From Periconia sp. R9002 (taxonomy: Eukaryota > Ascomycota > Dothideomycetes > Pleosporales > Periconiaceae): a DNA stretch of 12,097 nt. The notes under the pieces were generated by a model that saw only the letters and a list, made by a program, of their open reading frames with translations, was not told the DNA's origin and made no database searches. Positions 1 to 12,097 of the stretch are shown here, piece after piece. Every line of letters begins with the position of its first letter. Positions within the stretch are counted from its first letter, which is position 1. The stretch covers positions 1-12,097 of the forward strand of contig JAMAHW010000244.1 in the NCBI GenBank assembly GCA_023627715.1, in the 5' to 3' direction. A program made the translations under genes and the position numbers.

Positions 1-68
1 ATTCATTCCACCACGTTTTAAGAATATCAAATCCTTCTCTATGTTTTCATCCAAGACTACTATCGCGA

Positions 69-119
69 CAAGGTCAGGGCAGGAACGGGTCGGCCATTCT
101 CGCAGCTGGTGGTGGCAAC
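69..119 (-). promoter_or_regulatory. Upstream module copy A (first box only)
   Basis: Read on the minus strand this contains the box GGCCGACCCG followed by CCTGCCCTGACCTTG, preceded by GTTGCCACCACCAG. The same box occurs at 4582, 6610, 8940 (minus) and 10050. In the other copies a second box and a TATAAC element follow 130-330 bp further on; here they would fall left of base 1. By analogy this copy belongs to a leftward-transcribed gene outside the window. The box is seen directly; the promoter role is inference. Confidence 0.5.
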
Positions 120-381
120 TGTTAACGCCGTGCCACTTCCGTGCCGTGACTCACCACTATAATACCTGCTTACTACACTGTCTACTTATATTTAATAATA
201 AAGTCCGATGCACATTAGAGTGCAAGGACATAAAGAACATAACCAGTGGTACCTCACGCGTGATGTACCTCCTTGAACTTTCGCCACCAGCGCCCTTTTG
301 AGAGCGGCTCTAGTCTGAGTGGACTGCTCTCTAGGGAGCCAGGATTAGGCAGATGGGTACCGTGGTCCATAACTTCACATC
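69..381 (+). repeat. Left arm of long inverted repeat flanking the NLR gene
   Basis: This stretch matches the reverse complement of 4294-4608. The outer 120 bp are close to identical, including about 45 bp around CGTGCCACTTCCGTGCCGTG. Further in the arms are patchier but still share CTTGAACTTTCGCCACCAG and GGCAGATGG. All differences I could count in the outer 120 bp are transitions, which fits repeat-induced point mutation or similar C-to-T decay. The inner end of the arm runs into the stop codon of the NLR gene. A further identical 15-mer, CTTGTCGAGCAGCAG, lies at 411-425 and, inverted, at 4257-4271. Confidence 0.85.
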
Positions 382-3300
382 TCCGCGTGGAGTGCGTTGA
401 CGTCGGCGCCCTTGTCGAGCAGCAGTTTCACAATCGCCTCGTGGCCTTCAGATAAAGCCGCCTGGAGTGCGTTGCCGTAGTATCCACCCTGCGCGTTTAC
501 GTCGGCGCCCTTGTCGAGCAGCAGTTTTACAATCGCCTCGTGACCTTCAGATGAAGCCATGTAGAGTGCGTTGCCGTAGCGTCCACCCTGCGCGTTGACG
601 TCAGCTCTTTGGTCTGCAATCTCTTTTATCACATCTAGTAAGCCCCCAAGCGCGGCGTAATACAAAGCTGGAGCTGGCTTCCCTTTCGGATTGTCTGGTC
701 GATCTAACCATGGCGTGTCTGGTCTATGGAGACTATAGCAGATGTTGTACGAGATCTCCCGGTAACAGAACAGTTGCTTAATGAGTTCCAGCAATTTACT
801 GTCGTTATCTTTGGCCTCTGCAGCATTCGCCATCCAATATCGTGCTGAATACTGCGCAAAAGGGTAGCGCTGTACGACATCGTGGACTGGAAGCTCCTCA
901 TTGAAGTGTAGTAAATATGCCAGGCATGTCTGCGCGATTGCTGCTCTAGCAGTAGGCTCTTCGAAATTTGGCGCAACGTCGCTATCCAGCCGACTGGATG
1001 TCAGATACTCCTTAACGGAGAAATGTGCTAACTGAACCGCCACATAGCTGCCATTGTTTCTTTCTAAATGCCCCGGGATCGATACCACAACAACTAGACT
1101 CGAGCAATAGCGCGTGATTTCTCGAGAGTCAGGCATCCTGTACTTTGGACAAAAGAGCGGGTCTCCATTTGGGTCCACGGCTATTGCGTCAACAACCTCT
1201 TCGACTTTTAACGGGCGCTCAGAAAACGCCACCAGCTGAAGAATAAGGGTAGCAATCTTCCTGTGCTCGGGAGGGATAGCATGCAAAATCCTATTATAAG
1301 TTTCGTCTAACGTTTTTGGGAGGGAGACTAGCGCGTGCTGTAGGGTGCGATAGTCGAGACAGTTTGCTAGAGCATCTATTTGGCATGCAGCCCATCGGAA
1401 CCTATTCCAATTTCGATTACTATATGATAATTTAGAAAAAGCGGGAGTACTACTCACATTCCGTTAGCTTTTTGCATAAGTGCCCCTTCAATCTCATCCT
1501 GGATATCTGGGTGCTGTTGCCATCTCTTCAAACCGTCACTCTTCCTAACTTGAGCGTGGATGTATGCATTTATGTCGCCAGTGACAAGAGCACTCTCTAG
1601 GGGGATTACATTCTCTACGGAGATTATGTCGTTCAACTTCGATTGAATGTCCTGCTCCGGCCGACTTGTCACTAGGAGATGTATGTGCCGCTGCTTTGAG
1701 CCTATCAGATCTTCTATCCATGAGAGCAGGCCTTCGCTGTGTGAGCCTGCCCGTGTACTACACTCATCTAGAGCATCTAGCACAATGTATATGTTGTCCA
1801 AAGAATCTATCATCCTCGAGAAAACCTGGCAGAGCGATTCGCACCTTGGCTGACGACGTCCGTCTTCACAAGAGGAATAGAGCGAATCCACAAACGTCCG
1901 CGTATCTTCATACTTGTGGTAAACCTGGCTCACGAGAGAACGTATCATTTTGTCAAGCTTCCGCTTGTAGGAATCGCTAAAGTCGAAGTAGAAGTATAGC
2001 AAAGTTGGAGAGGGTAGAATAGTTTTCAGATCCTCAATGAGAGTGGAACTGAGGATGGTCTTGCCGCACCCGGGTATGCCCTGAATCCACAACGTAGAGT
2101 TTCGCGGCATCTTCCATTGAGCATATACATCCGATTGAAGGAACCAGAGCCCGGTGCCTTCGTGACGTTGTTGTAGAGCTTTGTTGTAGTTTATTGATGG
2201 ATCCGGTGGCGATAGCCAGCACTCGATGTCTTTCTGTCTCTGATTGAACGACATGTCTTGCACGGTAGACCTGGTGCCTTTGATATCGTAACGTATTTCA
2301 TTTACATCTTCTTGAACTTGTTGGGTGTCAACAAACTAATCATTGAATCTACTAGAAAGATGAACTAACCAGACAAGAGGAGATCACCAATCTTTTTCTC
2401 AGCTTCAATCTTGGTAGGAGCGATTCTACAGAGAACATCCTTTGCGTATGCGGCTGCTGCCATCGCTGCATAGCCTTGCCATTCCTTGTTCTTATGGGTG
2501 TCAGAGTAGTCGCAGATGCCGCGAATGACCAGACAGGGGAAATCATTCATCAATCCAGCAGCTTCCATCTCAAAGCAGAGAACGTCGTTTTGTCTAGCGA
2601 ATTTGTCACGAAGTAGAGCATCCTTCATCACCTTATTTGCGGAAGCCACTGTGCCGTAATGAACTGCCGGATTATCGTCTTCTTGGGTCCTTACGTTTCG
2701 CAAGACAAGCTTGGAAGGATTATTGTCACAAGTTTCGGCACAGGTCGCGTCATCACCGTCAGGATGCTTATATGTACTCAGATAGAGCTTATCCGTTTCC
2801 AGTTCTGGCCGCTTGAATTCCTTTCTCAGACGTGGAAACTTCTCCAGAACGCTGTTGAGGGCCTCTTCTAATCGATGGCCATGTAGTTTGTATTGTGCTT
2901 CGAGGTCACCGACTGCTGCTTCTAGAAATGTCGGTGGCTGATTCAAGTGCCCTGTGACTTTGAATTCTTTGCCCTGGATTGCTTTGCCAAAGTCGTATTG
3001 AAGCACGCCGCCCTCTCTATCGTGAGGTATGCTGACAACAATATCACCTAGACGGATGTCGTGCTTCGAATTCGGGGCGCCGCCGCCGATGCCGACCATT
3101 AATCCGATTCTGATGTTGGGGAAGGTGCGGAGCATATCTCTCGCGACGCCTGCCGCAGATGTAGTGCCGTACCTACCCTTTGGCAGGGCGGCGATGACAA
3201 CATTATGCTTGCCTATTTCGCCAAGTGTGTAGTTGTTGTTGTCATTTTGAGGGATGGAATCTGGTGGGCTGTGGGTTGCGTCGAGGAACGCTTGGGCGGC

Positions 3301-3465
3301 GACGTACTCGGTGGTGATGGCGCAGATCCAACCAACGGTATATTCGCCGTTTTCAAGCTTCTGCTGAGATAAAGCCGGTCGGTCACCTTTCAAATCAAGT
3401 TTCGCTTTCTTTGCATCTCTAGAAAAGATACCGTCATCTTCGCAAGCAGTTCGTTTCGTAGACAT
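375..3465 (-). CDS. NLR-like protein: PNP-type domain, NACHT ATPase, ankyrin repeats (3 exons)
   Basis: Exons 3465-2370, 2316-1458 and 1401-375 join in frame to a 993-residue protein. The introns are 53 and 56 nt, with donors GTTAGT and GTGAGT. An in-frame TAA directly before the ATG fixes the start. Residues 43-345 look like the nucleoside phosphorylase domain of fungal NLRs (GWICAITTEY, MVGIGGGAP, CFEMEAAGLMNDFP, RGICDYSDTHKNKEWQGYAA). The NACHT part has Walker A GIPGCGKT (445-452), Walker B IYIVLDALDEC (541-551) and LLVTSRPEQD (579-588). The post-NACHT helical region follows (LPKTLDETYNRIL, about 679). Ankyrin units start near residue 896. Such proteins are thought to sense ligands through their repeats, oligomerise through NACHT and act through the N-terminal domain in incompatibility or immunity. 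The acceptor of intron 1 (CAAG) is the least certain junction. The ankyrin array is short and ends abruptly. Confidence 0.9.
393..590 (-). repeat. Two near-identical 99-bp ankyrin-coding units
   Basis: The plus-strand 99-bp period is clear: GTCGGCGCCC recurs at 402 and 501, and the 15-mer CTTGTCGAGCAGCAG at 411 and 510. Each unit encodes 33 residues built on SEGHEAIVKLLLDKGADVNA. The units differ mainly at a few residues around YGNAL (R/Y and YMAS/QAAL). High DNA identity between units with changes concentrated at a few codons is the pattern described for rapidly evolving NLR repeats. A third, more diverged ankyrin unit precedes them (PALYYAALGGLLDVIKEIAD). Confidence 0.85.
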
Positions 3466-3493
3466 TTAGGCGTCGTAGGGAAAGCGGGTGCCA

Positions 3494-3517
3494 CGCCCAA
3501 GAAAGTATGCTTGGGCG
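3494..3517. promoter_or_regulatory. 8-bp inverted repeat just upstream of the NLR start
   Basis: CGCCCAAG, an 8-nt spacer, then CTTGGGCG form a perfect inverted repeat 29-52 bp ahead of the NLR ATG. On the minus strand it is framed by two direct copies of CCGCTTTCCC. It could be a dimeric transcription-factor site or a hairpin in the 5' leader. No binding factor can be named from sequence alone. Confidence 0.35.
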
Positions 3518-4235
3518 GGGGAAAGCGGCAGACTTGTCTTGACAGCTAAATCATTAAGCACGGTGAGCAAAGTACAAAAAAAGAATGTATATTAACGCTT
3601 GAAAGAGAAAAAATGAAAGACAGCAAGTCCAAGCAGCTGGAGCAGGTCGAGGTGGTTGATGAAAGCCTCTTGAAGCCAGACAGCTCCCACAAGGCTGAGA
3701 ACTCTTGGCCAGCTCAGCCGAGGCGGTTTGCGCACTACCCCAATCAGCCTTGGGTTGCGCCGCGCATCGTACAACTGAACCTCCCGCCTATGGGAATCGG
3801 TGCCCGTTCAATGTCTCTTGTCCTCGCCAATTTAGCCAACAGTTATCTGCTATCGCTCAGTCTTGGTGCTGGCTGCCATCGGCTGCCGCAAGGTCTCGCA
3901 GGTCGAGTCGTCAGGTATAGCGCGCTGCACCTTATACCAAGCACGACCGTCTTGATTGAATTCTTGGAGCCCTTGAGCCGATCGAGGACTACTAGGGCAG
4001 TCTCCCCAACCCTTTGAGGTTAAGCGCTGTCGAGTTCTAAAAATGCCCATAAGCGAGCACATCACGTGACCTTTACTGATGCATCTCTTTGCTGCTTCTC
4101 CTCAACTCGCGCCACTGCTATCGCTATCGTAGAATGGATAGGGCAACGCTCATCCTATGCTACTCTACCAAATGGCTTCATCTGGCTGTACCACGACTCG
4201 GCCTAGACCATCCGACAACTCATGTATGTCTAGAT
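3518..4235. other. Intergenic region upstream of the NLR gene
   Basis: This is about 700 bp without a gene I can support. A 134-codon open frame (3613-4017, +) starts in an A-rich context after a TATATTAACG-like sequence. It has no recognisable domain and competing frames are open on the minus strand, so I leave it as unsupported. A palindromic E-box-like site TCACGTGA lies at 4062-4069. The NLR promoter should be at the left end of this stretch. None of the shared upstream modules occurs here. Confidence 0.4.
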
Positions 4236-4313
4236 CATCAGCGTTCGCTCGAGCAGCTGCTGCTCGACAAGCCATTAGCCATTCAAGGCGTAAACCAAAG
4301 CATGAAGTTGTAG
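4236..4313 (+). pseudogene. Decayed ankyrin C-terminal fragment at the inner edge of the right repeat arm
   Basis: One plus-strand frame reads HQRSLEQLLLDK and ends with stop TAG at 4311-4313. The intact NLR reads GHEAIVKLLLDK before its own stop. The 15 nt encoding LLLDK are identical, CTGCTGCTCGACAAG at 4257-4271. The distance from there to the stop differs by only two codons, and homology of the inverted-repeat arms begins again right at the stop. I read this as the eroded 3' end of a second NLR copy lying in opposite orientation to the intact gene. No NACHT or PNP remnant is recognisable further upstream, so the evidence is one short match in a meaningful position. Confidence 0.4.
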
Positions 4314-4608
4314 ACGACAGCTTCCATCTGCCACATTCTGGCTCACTAGAGATGAGGTTGCCCGGAGCAGAATTACCCTTAAAAGAATACTGGTGGCGAA
4401 AGTTCAAGAACAAGGTACACGGGATATAAGGTACCACTAGCCTTTATTTGCTTGCACTATAATGTACATTGGACTTCATCATTAAATACAACTAGACAGT
4501 GTAGTAAGCAGGTATCATAGTAGTGAGTCACGGCACGGAAGTGGCACGGCGTCAACGGTTGCCACTACCAACTGCGAGAATGGCCGACCCGTTCCTGCCC
4601 TGACCTTG
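4294..4608 (-). repeat. Right arm of long inverted repeat flanking the NLR gene
   Basis: This is the reverse complement of 69-381, matching over about 300 bp with small gaps and best over 4490-4608. Its outer 50 bp (4559-4608) are the first box of upstream module B. Outside 4608 the similarity to the left arm stops, but similarity to the module upstream of the HET gene continues. The arm is therefore made of an NLR 3' flank joined to the start of a module. Confidence 0.85.
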
Positions 4609-4920
4609 CGTTGATGGCGATATTTCATCGATTTGGTGAAGAACGGCAGGAAGGCTCCTGGCAAAGATGGCTGATGGTTACACGTAAGGGTAGAAGTTGT
4701 TGGTACGAGGTGTGGTAAGAGCTTGTATAGGCTCCCTGGTATGCACTGCATTCGTACTAGAGAGCCACATTAGGACTCACTGTCAGACCCACTGCGGGAG
4801 CCAAAATACGGTTCGTGGGGATCAGAATAAGCTCCCGGGCTGCAACGGCTGTTTGGTATGGTTTCTAGGGTTTTTGCGTCTAGTGTAGTCTTGGCGGTGC
4901 GTCTGATAACGTGATATAAC
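4559..4920 (+). promoter_or_regulatory. Upstream module copy B, ahead of the IFI6/27-like gene
   Basis: Elements in order are: GTTGCCACTACCA; GGCCGACCCG (4582-4591) with CTGACCTTGCG; ATCGATTTGGTG; AGGTGTGGTAAGAGC (4708-4722); GAGCCACATTAGGACTC (4762-4778); box 2 GACCCACTGCGGGAGCCAAAA (from 4786); GCTCCC (4831-4836) inverted to GGGAGC; and ATATAAC at 4914-4920. Copy E has the same elements in the same order, and the 15-mer and 17-mer are identical. ATATAAC lies 126 nt before the ATG at 5040. The layout fits a core promoter with upstream control elements. That role is inferred. Confidence 0.6.
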
Positions 4921-5039
4921 GATAAAACAGGTTACGCCTTATCGTCTATCAGTGCAACAGAGTCACAGCCTCCAACTACTTTTCTCCACCTCGCCAACAG
5001 GTTATACATTTGTTAGCGTCGGAATTACTCGCGACCATC

Positions 5040-5655
5040 ATGGCTCTTTTCCGTCAGGCTGGCAACTGGATCGTCCAACATCCGTTTAAATCCGCTGCAG
5101 TTGTAATTGCTCTAACTTTACTTGCTGTGGCTACAGTTGCTGTACTTGTACTTGCTACGATTGTACTTGCTGCAATCGTCTTTGCTGCGCCTATTACTAT
5201 ACCTGCAGCCTCGGTCGTGCTAGGCCTTGCAGGATTCGCGGGCCTGGGTATCGCGGGTATTACTGCTTGTATGTGAATATCTCCCTGATGTACAGTACTA
5301 AGTCTGCTAAAATTCTCTGTACCAAGCTTCTGCTGCTGCTATTTTCGTAGCAGGCGTAGGGCATGTATTCGCTAGAATTACATCTACCGTATTTGAGAGT
5401 GCGGGTGCTAGGGGTGCTATCATTGTTGTTGTCAATGCTGTCGCTCGTGGAATTGCCGCCGTTATAACTACAACTGGTGCAGCTATTTCATCTCATATCC
5501 AGACCAAGTACGACTGTGAACGCGAGGGTCAAGACGGTGTTGGATACAAAGACCAAGAAGACAAACAGTGTGAGACATCAGATGAGGGGAGACACCAAGG
5601 CAAAAATGACATCCAGGAGAAAGAAGGCAACAAGAAAGAGCAAGCAAAGCTTTAA
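5040..5655 (+). CDS. IFI6/IFI27 (ISG12)-like small membrane protein (2 exons)
   Basis: Exons 5040-5268 and 5327-5655 join across a 58-nt intron with donor GTATGT and acceptor CAAG. The product has 185 residues. Without splicing the frame would stop at once (ATG TGA). After splicing, residues 18-75 form a very hydrophobic Ala/Val/Leu-rich stretch, probably two membrane helices, ending GLAGFAGLGIAGITA. Then come SSAAAIFVAGVGHVFARITS and TVFESAGARGA (97-107), which match the small-residue-rich core of the Ifi-6-16 family. A second hydrophobic segment and a charged hydrophilic tail (from about 140) follow. Animal members are interferon-induced proteins of mitochondrial or ER membranes that modulate apoptosis; fungal homologues exist but are little studied. 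The ATG has a good context (ATCATGG). Upstream module B lies directly ahead. Confidence 0.75.
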
Positions 5656-5852
5656 TTGCGGTCAGCTTCTCTATTAGAGTGGCCTAACTCAGCGTCCGAT
5701 CCAACCAAGCGATTCACGAATTCGGTTTCTTGAGGAATATGGTGGAAGTTTCTTGCCTCTTGGAACATCACAGTGGTAGCTTCAACAGATTCCGGAGTGG
5801 TCAGACTCCGAACTGATTTGCCAAAAAGAAAGGCCGTGGTTGTATCCATCAT
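5652..5852 (-). pseudogene. Cytochrome P450-like fragment (CYP52-type resemblance)
   Basis: The minus-strand frame begins MMDTTTAFLFGKSVRSL and continues to EATTVMFQEARNF. This resembles the segment DTATEFLFGESVxSL...FAEAFxxAQ found in the middle of fungal CYP52/CYP63-like P450s. No oxygen-binding helix, ExxR or haem-binding Cys motif is present, and nothing P450-like can be followed on either side. It is therefore at best a relic of about 40 codons. Its stop overlaps the end of the convergent IFI6/27-like gene. The call rests on motif recollection only. Confidence 0.4.
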
Positions 5853-6605
5853 GTGACAGGAGGCAATCAGCGGTCAAACATCGGAATAGCCTTTTGGATA
5901 AACAGCGCTTGATGGTTACACAAAATCTTGCAATTGCCAAACCGGGCTAGCCTTGACGGTATTGCTATCTTTTGCTCCTTACCTTGTCTTTCAACACACA
6001 ACTACTAACTACCTTGACACTTATTACCTGTCTTCTTCTTGTCTGCTGTCACACACGCCACTCACTATCAACATGGAATTCTTCAGTCAAATACTATGTC
6101 CCTAAACCGTACCACTGAGGAAGGGTTAGGTTGCCCTGACAGTTATTCCCATTCGCATAAGCCCTGTTCTATTTCCCCTACTCATATGCTCATTTATTAA
6201 GAAAGAAATGGTTCCAAGCATGGGCATATTGTATGCCAACGATCAGCTGTTGCGTATATGGCTAACGTTAATCTTGCTTTTACGTAAAAAGATCACGTTT
6301 GTGGTGATGAAGCCGTGGGCTGATGGAAGAATGTACATTGTGCGTCTGCCTAAAACATAGTTTTTTTAGTCACAAAAATACTGGCCTAGCTGCTACGAAT
6401 TATCCTAAAGCCGAAGAACTAATGTCGCTTTCTTTATTTACCAACTAGTAAAGGTGCCCAAAGAAGATATGCAGGTGTTCGAGTTGATTTATGGCTGCAT
6501 CAAGTACAAAAAGTACATCTAAAGTACTTGAAGCAGCGTTAGCCTAGCCATGTTATCATCATGGTAGTGGGACATTTACTGGGATCTCAACACTAGTGTC
6601 CGTCA
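5853..6605. other. Gene-poor stretch
   Basis: No supported gene. Around 5990-6072 there is a pyrimidine-rich leader-like sequence ending CACTATCAACATGG, which looks like a fungal translation start. The frame closes after nine codons, so this may be the 5' end of a lost gene. The rest is AT-rich, including the inverted repeat CAAGTAC (6501-6507) with GTACTTG (6524-6530) around a third AAGTAC. Confidence 0.4.
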
Positions 6606-6830
6606 GCATGGCTGACCCGCAACGGCACTGACCTTGCGCGAGAGGCGCTCGCTTTTCTATCGTATGAAAGAGCAGACATCGTGAAGCTTGGTTATGATAT
6701 CTCCCCATAGTTTTTACGAGTTGGTGGTGGCGTTAGAGTCGAGCGTGACCAGGCATCTGGTGCTAGATCAGTACCCACTACAGGAACCAAATCAGGCCTC
6801 GCGGCTAGCTAGGCACAATCCATATATAAC
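6606..6830 (+). promoter_or_regulatory. Upstream module copy C
   Basis: The first box has one base changed, GGCTGACCCG (6610-6619), with CTGACCTTGCG at 6628-6638. The second box is GTACCCACTACAGGAACCAAA (6771-6791). TATATAAC ends at 6830. The order and spacing agree with copies B and E although the spacers have diverged. Only a weak candidate gene lies downstream, so this copy may be orphaned. Confidence 0.45.
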
Positions 6831-6886
6831 ATGGGTGTCAAACAGGTTGCTCGACGACTAGTATCGCCCTAGTTCCATTGTCCTCA

Positions 6887-7166
6887 ATGTCTCGTCGTAT
6901 GTATTCATCCTTCCTCCCTCTTTCTCTTTCTGGTAGACTTCAGCACTTCGGATCTCGGTGTTGGTGGATATAACGGTGCAGGTGCGAGAGTAGCCATAAA
7001 GCGACCAGATAGCCGCACCAAGTTTTCGAAACTGCAAATCCATTGGATTATGGCTAAAATTTCCTTTATGCAAGGGTACACATTTGGGGCATGTCGATTA
7101 GGGTTGGTGCTCTGCCAAGGTTCACCTCATACCTCAACCTCACTTGAGGTAGATCATCTATTGTAA
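6887..7166 (+). CDS. Candidate small gene downstream of module C (2 exons, weak)
   Basis: ATGTCTCGTC (6887-6896) is followed by GTATGT, a perfect fungal donor. A pyrimidine-rich stretch ends in TAG at 6936, giving a 40-nt intron. Splicing there opens a frame to TAA at 7164-7166 and a 79-residue product containing GVGGYNGAGARVAIKRP and a CRLGLVLCQG segment. I recognise no family. The ATG lies about 57 nt after the TATATAAC of module C. Against it: the intron is very short with no clear branch site, the frame could be open by chance, and a minus-strand frame overlaps it. Treat it as a prompt for transcript evidence. Confidence 0.22.
7131..7150. repeat. 7-bp inverted repeat between the candidate gene and the nuclease-like gene
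   Basis: ACCTCAA (7131-7137), spacer CCTCAC, then TTGAGGT (7144-7150). It lies where two convergent transcripts would end. It may be a chance hairpin or part of 3' processing signals. Confidence 0.25.
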
Positions 7167-7225
7167 AAAGCAACATTGATATGAAGCTACGAACATAGCA
7201 GAAAGATTTTGGTAGGCTGTCTCAT

Positions 7226-8501
7226 TTATGCATTATTGCCCTTCCGTTTCTTCTTCACCGGCTCCGATGCTACCGATGTAGGTGTCGCCGGCGTTTGGAA
7301 CTGGATCCAGGGCCGTGAATCTAACGAAGTCTCTGAACGGGCAGCTGTACTCTCAGGCACATGTTGAGATTGACGTCTGTTTATCGCAAAGGCCGGAAGA
7401 GCCGCTTTGATGGACTGCAAACGTTCTCCAACAGCATAATCTAAGATGTTCCATAACATCTGTCGTGCCAGTTCTACCTCAGCCTCTTTTCGCAACGAGA
7501 ACTCGTACACTAACTCCATATGATGTATGTCCTGCTCCCTCCAATGTACGAATATGTTCCCGTTCAACAGATCGCAGGTGAGAGAGAAATGACAAGTCTC
7601 AACAGCGTTCGGCTCGTATTCACGCCCGCGTGAGACGCTGTAGAATTCGTGAAGATGATTCACAATGACGGCCCCGTCGCGACCGGCTTGATTGTGTGCG
7701 TGAGAGTGGTTCTGATTCGAGTTGGGAGACTTCCATTGCGAGGTAAGGAAGGGGAAATGCAGGTACGGGGTGAGACGATACCTGCATATAACGTCAGTTG
7801 CGTGCGAGAGACATGCGCGGCCGGATGACCTACCCGTCAAGCACCTCGTCTTCGGCTGGCAAAAAGGCCATCTGGCTCGGAGGTACCGCGTTCTCCGCAT
7901 CTCCCCGTGTCACATACCCAATCGCCGTGTCAGGTCTAGGTTGTGAGAGATCTCCCCAAGTCTTTGTGACGTTCGCATTGGCCGCTTGTGGAAGAAACGA
8001 TCGCGCCAAGTTTATCTCGTCCTTTGAGTATATAAGAGGTATGCCAGGCACTCTATCATCCGCCTCAGCCTCCCCCCGAAAGAGGAGATACGGCTCGACC
8101 TGCTTGATGCCACCGCGCTCGTTCTGTTGTGCCGCAATCCGTCTCTTTTCCACGACCTTTTTGGCATTCGGCGATGGTGGATTTGATCGGGGTTTACGGA
8201 TTACGTCCCGAAGATGTTGTTCTAGTTTCTTAGGATATGTGCATCCCTTGTCAATCAAGATATTGTATGCACCAAGCTTGTTACGATTGTCGAGATTCGA
8301 CCGACTTGGAGACGACGTTCGAGACATAGTGGAAAAGGACGTCTGACTCTCAAGGAGCCGGATGTTGTCTTCTGTGAGCGGCAAAACTTGGCTCGACTCT
8401 GACAGAGACGGTGTAGAGATAGAGACTGCACATCGTTTTGCGGGAGGGAGCTGGGATGTGCCGGGCGCACAGCTTCCAGAGAGGGCGCGCTTTCTTGGCA
8501 T
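7226..8501 (-). CDS. DUF7924-type, PD-(D/E)XK nuclease-like nuclear protein (2 exons)
   Basis: Exons 8501-7834 and 7781-7226 join across a 52-nt intron (donor GTAGGT, acceptor TGCAG) to 407 residues. The N-terminal 120 residues are Ser/Pro-rich and basic (MPRKRAL, AKRC), probably disordered. The core runs from QPRPDTAIGY (187-196) across the junction to PFLTSQWKSP (233-242), QAGRDGAVIVNHLHEFY (254-270), CHFSLTCDLL and NIFVHWREQD. This layout recalls a fungal family I know as DUF7924, with a restriction-endonuclease-like D...ExK core. Here the ExK position reads Q238-W-K240, so catalytic activity is doubtful. The C-terminus holds PVKKKRKG (397-404), a strong nuclear localisation signal. An upstream in-frame extension to 8606 is possible, but the start at 8501 resembles known family starts. 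Module D lies upstream. The family name is from memory. Confidence 0.7.
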
Positions 8502-8565
8502 AGAGCGACAGTACCTGTACGATGTCGTGCAAGGTAAAACGGTGAAAGTGTAGTACAGGTGTTGA

Positions 8566-8589
8566 ACGAAGTTGCACGAAGTTGCACGA
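8566..8589. repeat. Short tandem repeat in the leader of the nuclease-like gene
   Basis: ACGAAGTTGC is repeated directly, followed by a partial third unit (ACGAG): a 10-bp period about 65-90 bp ahead of the ATG. It is probably replication slippage. No function is evident. Confidence 0.5.
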
Positions 8590-8763
8590 GGATTGTCGCG
8601 ATGCAACTAGAGTTCCGAAGCGAGTTAGGCGCCTTGGTTGACTCAGCGACAGCGATGCCCAATTATGTCAGCTTGCGATCCGCCGAACGCTGATGTTGCC
8701 CAGCCAAGAACTGCCCCAGTGATTTAAGATCGCCCCGTTTAGCTCCTGCATCCTTAGTGTGGG

Positions 8764-8965
8764 GTTAAATGCAGGACAAGTGTTGGTTCCCGCGTCGTGG
8801 GTCGTGTTTCTAGCAACCGGCAGGATTTGCACCCAAACTGCAATGCAGCGGTCACCGACTATAAACAACCCTCGTGCTCTCTTCATTCACGTAAGAAAAA
8901 TAGACACCCCTTCGGCAAGGTTGTGGCAGGAGCGGGTCGGCCATTTTTCTGTAGTTGGTGGCAAC
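8764..8965 (-). promoter_or_regulatory. Upstream module copy D, ahead of the nuclease-like gene
   Basis: Read on the minus strand: GTTGCCACCAACT, then GGCCGACCCG (8940-8931) with CTCCTGCCACAACCTTGCC. 127 bp later comes ACGACCCACGACGCGGGAACC (8803-8783), then CATTTAAC (8771-8764) in the TATA position. The spacing between boxes is shorter than in B and E, and the B/E-specific 15-mer and 17-mer are absent. What is shared is the two boxes and their order. The ATG lies 262 nt beyond CATTTAAC. A short upstream frame starts at ATG 8750 (minus) and closes after 27 codons. Confidence 0.5.
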
Positions 8966-8996
8966 GCATCGTACTGTCTCACATAGGCTGCGCGTC

Positions 8997-9014
8997 ATGC
9001 TGATTGGTCAGCAT
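8997..9014 (-). promoter_or_regulatory. CCAAT box inside a 7-bp inverted repeat
   Basis: ATGCTGA, spacer TTGG, TCAGCAT is a perfect inverted repeat. On the minus strand it reads ATGCTGACCAATCAGCAT, holding a canonical CCAATCA element about 30 bp upstream of module D. CCAAT elements are bound by the Hap/CBC complex in fungi. Function here is inferred. Confidence 0.35.
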
Positions 9015-9344
9015 AATGCTGTGTCCTTCGCACAATATACAACTTGCTGCTTTACAGACGATTAAGCTACTGTGCAACTAGTAATAGGGCAAAATAGCAT
9101 CAATAATTGATACCGTTTATTCGTAATCAGATGGAATAACAAAAGCCTCAAATGTCATTATTCTTGCTGGAGTGGATTGAGTAGCTACATGTTGCTCGTC
9201 CCTGCTGGCATTTAAGGCCAAGTTTCTGAGTGAGTCTTTCAATCCTCATTTCATGCCGACCACTCTACGTGTGTTGATAACCATTAGATCAATAATATGC
9301 CCTTTTGCTGATTCCTGGGCTTTTAGACATCTTTATAGCCGCAA
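9015..9344. other. Intergenic stretch, nothing recognised
   Basis: About 330 bp between module D and the small orphan gene. I see no gene, repeat or module copy. It should contain the 3' end of the minus-strand small gene. Confidence 0.4.
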
Positions 9345-9615
9345 CTAACCGTCTTTTGTAGTTTCTTTGGTACACTTCTGAGTGGAACCAAACAATTAAC
9401 AAATGAACGCAAGCTCTGACGCAGTATGCACTCACCATCTGCTTATTGGAGCGCTTATCGGACGGATCGAATAGAGCTGCGATCTTTGATATGGTATCCA
9501 AGTCCGCTGAATCGAATGGTTTCTCGGTTGCGGCAAGGAAGTCTTTAATTTCTTTCTCTGTGATTTTTCCCATTATTTTATTGAGCTCAGCATCACTAGG
9601 AGGACAGCGCGACAT
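9345..9615 (-). CDS. Small hypothetical protein (2 exons)
   Basis: Exons 9615-9436 and 9377-9345 flank a 58-nt intron with donor GTGAGT and acceptor CACTCAG. The predicted product has 70 residues, starting MSRCPPSDAELNKIMGKI and continuing as a charged, helix-prone sequence (TEKEIKDFLAATEKPFD, DLDTISKIAALFDPSDK). I recognise no domain, and there is no signal peptide or membrane segment. The consensus splice sites and protein-like composition favour a real or recently real gene. A second possible donor (GTTAGT) near the stop could give an alternative C-terminus through a 35-nt intron, which is implausibly short. It may be the 5' part of a truncated gene. Confidence 0.4.
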
Positions 9616-10026
9616 CTTGAAGCTGGCTGTGCGAAGTCAATTCTTATGGAGCGGATAGGTTAAGGCGAATAACAACGGGATGAAATGCAGGTGGTGGAAA
9701 GATGGCAACAACTGTGAACGGGCAAAGACTGAACTCGTGCGGGGGCCTCTTCACGTGAGCAGGATATCGGCAGGCAATCATCGAATCACATTACCCATAA
9801 CTGAACTTGCTCGGAATCACGTTGTATCAAGGGAGTTGATTGGGTATTTTAAAACCGCGAATATATTACGAAGAGGTCATTTGCTCCGCAGAGGTGCCAT
9901 TGCGAATATGCCTCTATAACGCGTATTATTAATGATAATTTAGTGGGAATTTAAATGTGTCTAAGTGCGGACGTACGCTTGTTTCCACATGATATTAGAC
10001 CGTTATCAAAGCAATTAAGGGCTGAA
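9616..10026. other. Intergenic region upstream of module E
   Basis: No gene supported. It contains a TCACGTGA palindrome at 9751-9758, the same 8-mer as at 4062-4069, and an AT-rich stretch at 9920-9960. The sequence just before module E is not similar to that before module B, so the B/E similarity starts sharply at TTGCCACCA. Confidence 0.4.
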
Positions 10027-10327
10027 TTGCCACCACCAGCAGGGAGGGCGGCCGACCCGTACTGGCCCTGACTTTGCGTCAATGGCAACACTTTATCGAT
10101 TTGGTGGGGAAGCGCTGAATGTTTGCGTGCAAAGAAAGCTGATGACAATACATGTGAGAGTAACACTTGTTGTTACTACAAGGTGTGGTAAGAGCGTCCG
10201 TCGGTTGTTGGTCTGGAATCGAGCCACATTAGGACTCGTTGTCCGATCCACAACGGGAGCCAAACAACGGGTTGGTTGTGGGGATCAGATTAGGCTCCCG
10301 GCTCTTCATTATATACTAGTATATAAC
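10027..10327 (+). promoter_or_regulatory. Upstream module copy E, ahead of the HET gene
   Basis: Elements in order are: TTGCCACCACCAG; GGCCGACCCG (10050-10059) with CCCTGACTTTGCG; ATCGATTTGGTG; AGGTGTGGTAAGAGC (10181-10195); GAGCCACATTAGGACTC (10221-10237); box 2 CGATCCACAACGGGAGCCAAA (from 10244); GGCTCCC (10293-10299) inverted to GGGAGCC (10255-10261); and ATATAAC (10321-10327). Element order and content match copy B throughout. ATATAAC lies 123 nt before the first ATG of the HET frame (10444). Confidence 0.6.
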
Positions 10328-10362
10328 GGATTTATCCGAGTGTGTGAGCTTGCTGCGGGGAT

Positions 10363-10416
10363 ATGGTATCTATCCAGGCAGAGATCTACGCCATACCGAT
10401 GCCTGTGTGCCTTTAG
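10363..10416 (+). other. Possible upstream open reading frame in the HET leader
   Basis: ATG at 10363, with a second in-frame ATG at 10399, ends at TAG 10414-10416. If transcription starts about 30 nt after the TATAAC at 10321-10327, this 17-codon frame would lie at the very 5' end of the mRNA and could dampen translation. The actual transcription start is unknown. Confidence 0.25.
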
Positions 10417-10566
10417 GCGTGCCCCGCCCTAAGCTTCCTTCTCATGGAGTTTGGCCGCTACTTACATTCATTTCTGTCCACATACTTCTTATTATCGCCC
10501 CTACTTGCCACGTTAGTTCATCTGCTAGAACAACACTTGGAACGCCAAAGCGTCGCTTCTATTATC

Positions 10567-11787
10567 ATGGCGGATCGACCAGATATGCAAGAGCACTTGT
10601 ACCCTGCTCGACCGCTTTCTGAAAACTCCATCCGTCTTCTCATCCTCCAGCCAGGATCATTCGATGAACCTATCCGCAGCCAGCTCAAACAAGTCTCCCT
10701 TACCGATGGGAATGCCTACGAAGCTCTCTCATATGTCTGGGGGAATCCTTGTGATACTTTGCCCATATATCTCAACGGGGTGGAGTACTGTATCACCAGG
10801 AATCTGGAATGCGCACTACGGTATTTGCGGCATAAAGATTCGCCAAGTGTTCTCTGGATCGATGCCGTCTGTATTAATCAAAAGAGCGAAGAAGAGAAAT
10901 CAGATCAAGTGTCGAAAATGGGTGAGATTTACAGCAAGGCCATGAAAGTTCATGCGTGGCTGGGAAAAGCCGGCTTCCACACCGACCTCGTCTTTACCGT
11001 ATTGCTGAAATTCAGGGATTGCAAGAAGGAAGGAAAACACCCGACTTCTTCCGACACTGCCGAACAACTATCTCTCTATCAGCAACTATTTCACGATATT
11101 TATCAGGACGAAGCTGGCAGTTTACCTGATCGGTGTGAGTGGCAAGATCAAACATTACACGAAGAATTCAACTGGCTACGACCCTTATATGAACGGTGTT
11201 ACTGGCAACGTGTCTGGATTGTTCAAGAGCTAGTCCTGGCAAAAGCGGTGATTGTCCACTGTGGCGACAAATCTATTGATTTCGACGACATATATGGGCT
11301 TAGCCCTGATTGGGGCTCATTCGAACAGGGGTTTGATATGACGGGCTATAATACAGTGAAACAGCATACGAAAGGGTGGAACACCATCAGAACCATCCAT
11401 GGGCATCGCTCAAGAAGGAAAGTAGTGGAATGGAAGATGGATGGAGAGGGTCTCTATTCGATGAACATCAAAATGTCAGAGAAGGGCGATGTTGCGGTGT
11501 TGGATGAAGTGATTAGGATATACGCCCGGCACCACGAATGCAGTTGCCTCAAAGACAAAGTCTACGGCTTCCGTGAGCTGATTTCTCGGTGGAAAGAAGA
11601 GCTTGTGGTGGATTACAAGAAGTCTGACCTCGAAGTCTTCCTGGATGTTGCGAGGCTTGGTTTATTTGACTCTAAACAGCACGGTGGATGGAGCGTAGCC
11701 TCTTGCTTATGGTCAGCAATGGGGTTGAACAGCAGGGGAAACTTTGATGACTGCATGCGGCAATATATGCCTAAGGCTGGTTTGTAG
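10567..11787 (+). CDS. HET-domain protein (heterokaryon incompatibility family)
   Basis: A 406-residue, apparently single-exon frame. Residues 21-135 carry the classic HET signature: IRLLILQPG, YEALSYVWG (51-59), LWIDAVCINQ (96-105), QVSKMGEIYSKAMKVHAWLG (114-133). RVWIVQELVLAKAVIVHCGD follows (215-234). HET domains are TIR-like and mediate programmed cell death in vegetative incompatibility, often downstream of NLRs. I chose ATG 10567 for its context (ATCATGG) and because about 20 residues before IRLL is usual. An in-frame ATG at 10444 would add 41 residues with a hydrophobic stretch, and its distance from the TATAAC matches module B, so it remains possible. The protein is shorter than many HET proteins and stops soon after LEVFLDVARLGLF; the usual C-terminal part appears missing or displaced. 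Confidence 0.88.
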   Translation: MADRPDMQEHLYPARPLSENSIRLLILQPGSFDEPIRSQLKQVSLTDGNAYEALSYVWGNPCDTLPIYLNGVEYCITRNLECALRYLRHKDSPSVLWIDAVCINQKSEEEKSDQVSKMGEIYSKAMKVHAWLGKAGFHTDLVFTVLLKFRDCKKEGKHPTSSDTAEQLSLYQQLFHDIYQDEAGSLPDRCEWQDQTLHEEFNWLRPLYERCYWQRVWIVQELVLAKAVIVHCGDKSIDFDDIYGLSPDWGSFEQGFDMTGYNTVKQHTKGWNTIRTIHGHRSRRKVVEWKMDGEGLYSMNIKMSEKGDVAVLDEVIRIYARHHECSCLKDKVYGFRELISRWKEELVVDYKKSDLEVFLDVARLGLFDSKQHGGWSVASCLWSAMGLNSRGNFDDCMRQYMPKAGL

Positions 11788-12097
11788 AACGAATGAATCC
11801 GGTTTTATTGGCCACCCTCATCTATGGAGTCTAAGACTCCAGACTCTCAACACAATGCTTATTTGTATGGATGCAGCAAAGCTTTGCTCATCTACTAACG
11901 CGATGATATCACCGTTCATAGTCACGACTGGTGAGATAACGGATGTTTCTATACACTTCTCCTCGAAGTAAAAAATGGATCGCCTTCGTTGGTTGTTAGA
12001 GAGGCGTTGAGGTTTTCTACAACAAATAGTATCTATGATGATAGTGTTGGTTGTTGCCAAGTATTACGAATGACTTCCCGCGGTGGAAGCTCTAACC
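11788..12097. other. 3' flank of the HET gene; possible frame-shifted HET tail
   Basis: Another plus frame (open 11744-11971) reads CRTNESGFIGHPHLW, faintly like the (F)xTxxGyxGxgP motif near the end of many HET proteins. An open frame also exists on the minus strand (12060-11818). Neither is convincing alone. A GTTTGT at 11780-11785 could be a donor, but no clear acceptor restores a HET-like tail. Confidence 0.25.

Follow-up and report, generated by a model that had tools for sequence, protein, structure and literature searches.

In the bacterial shufflon of R64 (Rci/sfx), asymmetric sites, each with a short core between a conserved and a variable arm, alternate in direction between gene segments; the sites are 31 nucleotides (nt) long, lie at one locus and are served by a known recombinase, as described in PMC11852207. 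In Pneumocystis, the genes of the subtelomeric msg-I family are each preceded by a short conserved recombination junction element, a putative recombination point; it comprises 33 bp within the coding start and belongs to one gene family with one expression site, and a site-specific recombinase was not found there either, according to PMC10622565. Helitron2/Helentron elements have asymmetric terminal inverted repeats, make no target duplication, and show tandem arrangement and self-insertion (PMC5148889, PMC3627910 and PMC4067079); the distance of their 3' inverted repeat from the 3' end is given as 38-51 bp (PMC5148889) or 38-60 bp (PMC4067079). In this study, we analysed a 12,097-nt stretch of Periconia sp. 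R9002 (contig JAMAHW010000244.1, positions 1 to 12,097; hereafter the window) and a motif, box 1 or the core, that recurs in it and elsewhere in the genome. The host belongs to the Pleosporales: for 992 aa of its second-largest RNA polymerase III subunit, the best match was the Periconia digitata protein, at 94% identity. The repeated motif forms one half of an exact breakpoint at which blocks with immune-type genes were newly combined, and this points to cutting and joining of DNA rather than to one copied promoter. Gene-carrying terminal inverted repeat transposons (Pack-type) combine inverted termini with unrelated cargo, and Starships carry accessory genes.

The site examined here shares asymmetry, arms and alternation with the shufflon, but it is 60 nt long, occurs at 100+ places in a fungus, separates whole genes and would be served by a putative enzyme. 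It resembles the msg-I element in standing ahead of genes, whereas it is intergenic, lies between unrelated genes and has its switch fixed at one end of the element. The Helitron2/Helentron elements are similar in the distances of their repeats; in contrast to them, some of the present units have two right-type ends, and the units come without a hairpin and without an autonomous copy with these ends. Unlike Pack-type transposons and Starships, the units show no target duplication, are a few kb in size and are almost always joined to other units, and captain-type genes are few and mostly broken. We recognised no description of such joints in the literature searched, whose coverage lay outside subscription journals.

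The switch point and its two flanks

The core is about 50 nt of box 1, GGCCGACCCG with a CTGACCTTGCG-like tail, and ends in GACCTTG. One assembly was analysed. A search with the box-1 pattern (at most 3 mismatches, 42.9 Mb of genome) gave 104 matches, compared with 0 for the reversed pattern used as control; 100 of them were listed, and 67 of these were newly fetched with about 720 nt or less each. The earliest loci had been picked by likeness to copies B, E and A of the window, the later ones via the pattern. With a profile made from the copies, 172 kb of the loci fetched yielded 110 cores, and 200 kb yielded 111. The pattern under-sampled cores that differ from it by more than 3 mismatches, three of which surfaced later. 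The sequence-only reading had listed four of the window's five copies, and all four were significant profile matches (B, 4559-4609; C, 6591-6637; D, 8964-8915, minus strand; E, 10027-10077), but it had missed the fifth, A (118-69, minus strand). Copies B and E align at 74% over 118 nt, with further ungapped blocks of 84-92%.

Of 110 cores, 72 have a YGCCA box that begins 48-49 nt ahead of the joint, 80 end in ACCTTG, and 60 are followed by a GGCR box 7 nt past the joint. At the 58 joints where both the YGCCA and the GGCR box could be read, the two showed no association (Fisher p 1.0). No conserved fold or hairpin was found, the RNAalifold consensus of 109 joints being without pairs.

Flanks of 300 nt to the left and 350 nt to the right of the terminal CTTG were compared between all copies. 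Among the 110 cores, 16 pairs shared the left flank at ≥85% identity, 18 shared the right and none shared both (0/34), and at ≥75% the numbers were 90, 72 and 0; these pair counts include related pairs and do not represent independent events. Copies with a common right flank had unrelated left flanks. When the test position was shifted (≥85%), the joint itself gave 18 pairs with the left only, 20 with the right only and 0 with both, whereas the control positions to the right gave 5 left only and 15 both (+100), 2 and 15 (+150), and 1 and 14 (+200). To the left, the controls gave 8 both and none one-sided (-200), 3 right only and 8 both (-150), and 8 right only and 8 both (-100). The weakest control was -100, where half of the pairs end (25 of 38 at ≥80%), indicating that shared left flanks are often short. 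A value of zero for both flanks was not approached at any control position.

The base-by-base identity was also one-sided. In left-sharing pairs, identity was 95% over the five bases leading up to the joint and dropped at once to 0.38 over the five bases past it, compared with 0.37 in unrelated pairs. Right-sharing pairs were no closer inside the core than unrelated pairs (for example, 0.73 versus 0.74 at -10 to -6), and past the CTTG they reached 0.73 versus 0.37 in ungapped comparison. These results indicate that the core travels with the left unit and that the switch is limited to a few bases. We are highly confident that the switch point is fixed and that the flanks are inherited apart, and the observations call for a process that recognises specific sequence and cuts and joins DNA at CTTG.

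Scattered 50-nt repeats in DNA of a subtelomere-like kind could also acquire new flanks by ordinary ectopic homologous recombination. Its setting is suggested by the location of the cores, since 77 of the 100 matches listed lie on contigs shorter than 60 kb and several others lie close to contig ends. However, left-sharing pairs retain the entire core and right-sharing pairs retain none of it. Homologous recombination based on the core would spread the switches across the core, and their position at its end speaks against this explanation, to which we give little credence. One core stands alone on an 810-kb contig (C6:321508-321556) within the 10 kb read around position 321,556, and the AT-rich DNA after it contains no unit that we recognised. 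The same contig carries, at 347,500, a 93% copy of the window's DUF7924 gene.

The sequence-only reading had taken box 1, a second box and a TATAAC-like element as one promoter module that was copied ahead of accessory genes and formed a putative regulon, which Zn2Cys6 regulators might bind and whose genes would be expressed together. The elements do lie ahead of genes, and one promoter-like family does recur, as window 4559-4920 has 43 blastn matches in the genome. Right flanks like that of B precede different genes: the IFI6-like and HET genes of the window, a HET gene on contig C161, and a 455-aa open reading frame (ORF) without a Pfam match on C161 and C204. Box 2, CGGGAACCAAA, is readable in B, C, D and E, but among the flanks compared it marks only part of the right ones: allowing ≤1 mismatch, 20 of 100 right flanks contained it, against none of 108 left flanks and none of 100 shuffled right flanks, and allowing ≤2 mismatches the counts were 34, 0 and 2, respectively. 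TATAAC is exact in B, C and E, whereas D has only TTTAAC.

The near-equal distances from TATAAC to ATG that had been reported for B and E (126 and ~123 nt) depend on a doubtful ATG at 10444. The homologue P0001 aligns from residue 35 of the frame starting there, and the Periconia digitata protein P0002 aligns from residue 72 (residue 29 of P0002). ATG 10567 is therefore likelier, and the distance in E would then be ~245 nt. Box 1 belongs to the left unit and the promoter to the right unit, and none of the 34 flank-sharing pairs (≥85%) shares both. Promoter copying was accordingly rejected as the full account, box 1 and the promoter being inherited apart. The recurrence of the B family and the enrichment of box 2 in right flanks fit a regulon, but the separate inheritance makes it a very improbable explanation of the module. 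What survives is a promoter claim for one family of right flanks; a single module and a regulon do not follow from it.

Units between joints and how they may be joined

Whole units recur between joints. Window 4580-6647 matches C224:2922-4983 at 97%, with both ends inside cores and different neighbours, and the first 0.9 kb of the unit 4609-6636 is also present on C162. A 1.77-kb unit carrying the 455-aa ORF was found on C161, C204 and C138 (95-97%); it has right-type starts at both ends and lies amid six different left ends over the three loci, the sixth core (C138 near 25,276) being seen by eye only. Further joint-to-joint blocks are common to C243 and C142 and to C142 and C104. Of 65 match ends off segment edges, 21 fell inside the joint span (-35 to +16, fixed after the first alignments had been inspected); this span covers 2.9% of the sequence. 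In a search with the whole window (matches ≥92%), 13 ends were not at a contig or window end: six were at joints (4580 twice, 6647, 4607, 91 and 11993) and seven elsewhere (5517, 7413, 8407, 4859, 5542, 4306 and 10362).

Misjoining of short reads at a 50-nt repeat could in principle imitate such joints. Two contig starts (C238:1-77 and C193:1-77) share exactly 77 nt with other contigs, as would be expected of a k=77 graph assembly. However, an imperfect core of less than 77 nt should not cause graph paths to merge; in addition, units with 95-97% identity were kept separate, and the box geometry is constant on both sides. An assembly artefact is thus the least credible explanation, and an extremely improbable one.

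The cores tend strongly to alternate in direction. Of 69 pairs of neighbouring cores, 51 were oppositely oriented (p 9e-5), as were 39 of the 46 pairs within 6 kb (p 2e-6). With the three later-found cores (C243:2553, C243:4878 and C153:3312), each of which faces as its left neighbour does, the counts were 51 of 72 (p 5e-4) and 41 of 51 (p 1e-5). Of the seven same-facing pairs within 6 kb, two conceal a degenerate core (C219 near 7574, E 0.13; C138) and two more are one unit at two places. The intervals between alternating cores are bounded either by two core ends (L..L) or by two right-type starts (R..R). All L..L intervals by definition end in inverted 50-nt cores, and longer arms occur in part of them: similarity beyond the core (score ≥40) was seen in 9 of 28 L..L intervals, compared with 3% of 600 random pairs, and in 1 of 22 R..R intervals, compared with 4.8%. 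Two of the 28 (on C243 and C153) were later found to hold further cores. The nine include window 69-4608, in which the arm at copy A (69-235) is complementary to 4442-4608 at 91%.

We tentatively favour mobile gene units with precise, DNA-transposon-like ends, as an account that may quite possibly be right. The recurring module would be the joint between two adjoining mobile units, box 1 (the 50-nt core with its GACCTTG end) being the outer end of one of them and the promoter block, which has its GGCR box 7 nt in, being where the other starts. Units would be cut and joined at a single fixed point, the terminal CTTG. The L..L units, with inverted 50-nt ends and in some cases longer inverted arms, would be the transposon-like segments; their entry would be directed almost exclusively to dyad sites, ATCGCCTCC..GGAGGCGAT, that lie 5' of accessory genes at their ends, and repeated entry would build arrays of L..L and R..R units with HET/NLR-type genes. 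We infer movement as DNA, a dedicated enzyme and its transposase class, this order of events and any effect on expression. Such a process would account for the inverted arms, the alternation and the footprint-like R'-CTTG-R joints.

Several observations weigh against transposon-like units. No arm similarity beyond the core was seen in 19 of 28 L..L intervals, and of the 65 match ends 44 fall outside the joint span, which indicates that units also diverge and break internally. The sequence-only reading had named, as evidence against its promoter, matches bounded by target-site duplications as copies of one transposon; the cores do appear to bound mobile units, but no target-site duplication was found in any of 29 L..L intervals (perfect direct repeats of 3-10 nt at the ends), and 2 nt were common to both ends in 8 of the 29. 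A transposon-like process leaves the missing duplication unexplained, and it does not easily explain why R..R units recur with exact ends, as repeated entries at identical sites would be needed. The DNA read contained no complete L..L unit in two copies, and no transposase was found in the ORFs scanned from L..L units, which were picked by length and do not represent all units.

Joints of other kinds were also present. Right-type starts also abut head to head, separated by CTTG, CAAG or GTTG, on C142 (near 36703 and 50745), C243 (near 393) and C162 (34436) and in the window near 11993, as an emptied site would look. The R'-CTTG-R pattern itself was near noise (74 matches versus 34 in the control); by eye, only those at C142:50730, C243:379 and C162:34436 look real. 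A single L-L joint was found (C161 near 34287), and right-type starts also follow an (AC)nG end on C155, C142 and C158. This second kind of left end, TATTAGCTAGCACG..(AC)nG, lies directly before right-type starts (C155:1-80; C142:52476-52400, minus strand; C158:21322-21237, minus strand), and two contigs end in it.

A shufflon- or integron-like system of site-specific recombination cassettes was also considered. L-CTTG-R would then be an asymmetric site with one conserved and one variable arm, and a recombinase would invert or exchange segments between sites; segments between same-facing sites would be lost, leaving alternation. The conserved arm, short invariant centre and variable arm are as described for the sfx sites in PMC11852207. 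Core orientation alternates, joints are nearly all L-R, R..R and R..L units both exchange with exact ends, and exchange takes place at one fixed point of a conserved site, as tested. However, the inverted L..L arms, the R-R joints and the L-L joint are unexpected in such a system, and 18 of 69 neighbouring pairs face the same way. The cognate recombinase was sought in one family only, DUF3435, which gave 5 matches at 3 loci, two of them stop-broken. We consider these cassettes rather unlikely. A eukaryotic cassette system, in which a dedicated recombinase would reshuffle immune-receptor-type genes (HET, NLR, CHAT and SesA) at one fixed point in more than 100 asymmetric sites, as an analogue of shufflons and integrons for fungal nonself recognition, appears slightly less likely still.

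The DUF3435 (Starship captain-type) matches lie at C165:8691-9643 and C212:13649-14023, both stop-broken, and at C26:55418-56384, in pieces without stops; C165 and C26 also carry cores. Starship captains, few and mostly broken, were set aside as candidates.

Helitron2/Helentron-like rolling-circle elements, each with a gene and inserted end to end, would make the core a 3' end and the GGCR box a 5' inverted repeat. The start of the YGCCA box 48-49 nt from the joint is within the distances of the 3' inverted repeat given in PMC5148889 and PMC4067079; target duplication is absent, and one Helitron Rep gene (C151) lies 3.4 kb from a core. However, R..R units have no 3' end, a conserved hairpin is missing, and the Rep gene is not followed by a core within 3 kb (profile). 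This explanation was adopted on the distance match with PMC5148889 and was then downgraded because of the alternation, the existence of R..R units and the lack of a link between the Rep gene and the cores; we regard it as improbable, if a shade less so than ectopic recombination. The gene itself (C151:17078-23818; PF14214, DUF6570) is the sole Helitron Rep gene found in the genome, lies after the core and has a PIF1 helicase in the next frame; as far as 27,000 no core follows it, and the final 501 nt that were scanned occur in a single copy.

Genes of the window and cargo of the units

The features of the window are collected in Table 1. Pfam searches identified PNP, NACHT/NPHP3_N, ANK, HET and DUF7924 in the window. 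The gene at 10444-11787 had been labelled HET, which agrees with its Pfam match (E 8.7e-30). The gene called nuclease-like instead matches DUF7924, a domain of unknown function (E 1.8e-14), and no Pfam match at E≤1 backs the IFI6/27-like label. On C14, the DNA that lies after a core matches window 11993-12097 at 98% identity. The ankyrin-coding part of the NLR gene contains near-identical 99-nt tandem repeats at 394-614 (90% between two copies), a pattern seen in repeat domains that evolve fast. A 15-nt tandem periodicity is present at 5094-5187 in the small hydrophobic ORF.

Table 1. Joints, units and genes along the window
Feature	Position	Strand	Basis or remark
Right flank of core A, start of next unit, runs off contig	1..68	minus	Window 1-91 is 96% identical to C160:175-265, match stopping inside core A
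Core A, fifth copy	69..118	minus	Profile E 1.2e-15; inverted partner of 4559-4608; joint after base 69
L..L interval with inverted arms (91%, 167 nt)	69..4608	.	One of the nine with arms alike beyond core
PNP - NACHT - ankyrin gene inside L..L interval 69..4608	~3465-375	minus	Pfam
Stretch adjoining core B, 76% like end region of TPR/NB-ARC-type gene locus on C161	4155-4609
Core B	4559..4608	+	Profile match; joint after 4608
R..L unit, cores B to C, with B-family promoter block and small hydrophobic ORF 5010-5276	4609..6636	+
Core C	6587..6636	+	Profile match from model position 5, 6591-6637; joint after 6636
R..R interval, cores C to D, with DUF7924 gene 7226-8606 on minus strand	6637..8915	.
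Core D	8915..8964	minus	Profile match
L..L interval, cores D to E	8916..10076	.	1,161 bp, shortest of 29; arms unlike beyond core (score 19)
Core E	10027..10076	+	Profile match; joint after 10076
Unit following core E; carries B-family promoter block and HET gene (ATG probably 10567, stop 11787)	10077..11992	+
Head-to-head joint of two right-type starts, ATCGCCTTCGTTG-GTTG-TTAGAGAGGCGTT	11976..12007	.	Left half as inverted start read by eye

HET and NLR genes are of the nonself-recognition type in fungi. Of 30 ORFs scanned from core-bearing loci, 16 carried HET, NACHT or NB-ARC with ANK or TPR, ANK or TPR alone, HET-ANK, HET-NACHT-ANK, CHAT or SesA; among these, one NB-ARC match was at the curated cut-off and one below it. 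The remaining ORFs matched F-box, DUF7924 (below cut-off), DUF7580, a 3'-5' exonuclease domain or alcohol dehydrogenase, or had no match, such as the 455-aa ORF. ORFs were taken by length, most units were read in part, and some of the ORFs may fall outside units bounded on both sides.

These results also carry a caution: where a motif recurs upstream of genes in accessory regions, it can mark the end of a unit instead of a regulatory box. The HET/NLR repertoires of fungi change fast. The presence of HET/NLR-type genes in units that meet at a fixed point, at more than 100 places in one genome, offers a concrete, testable mechanism for how such repertoires are built and diversified, and a DNA tag for finding such arrays elsewhere.

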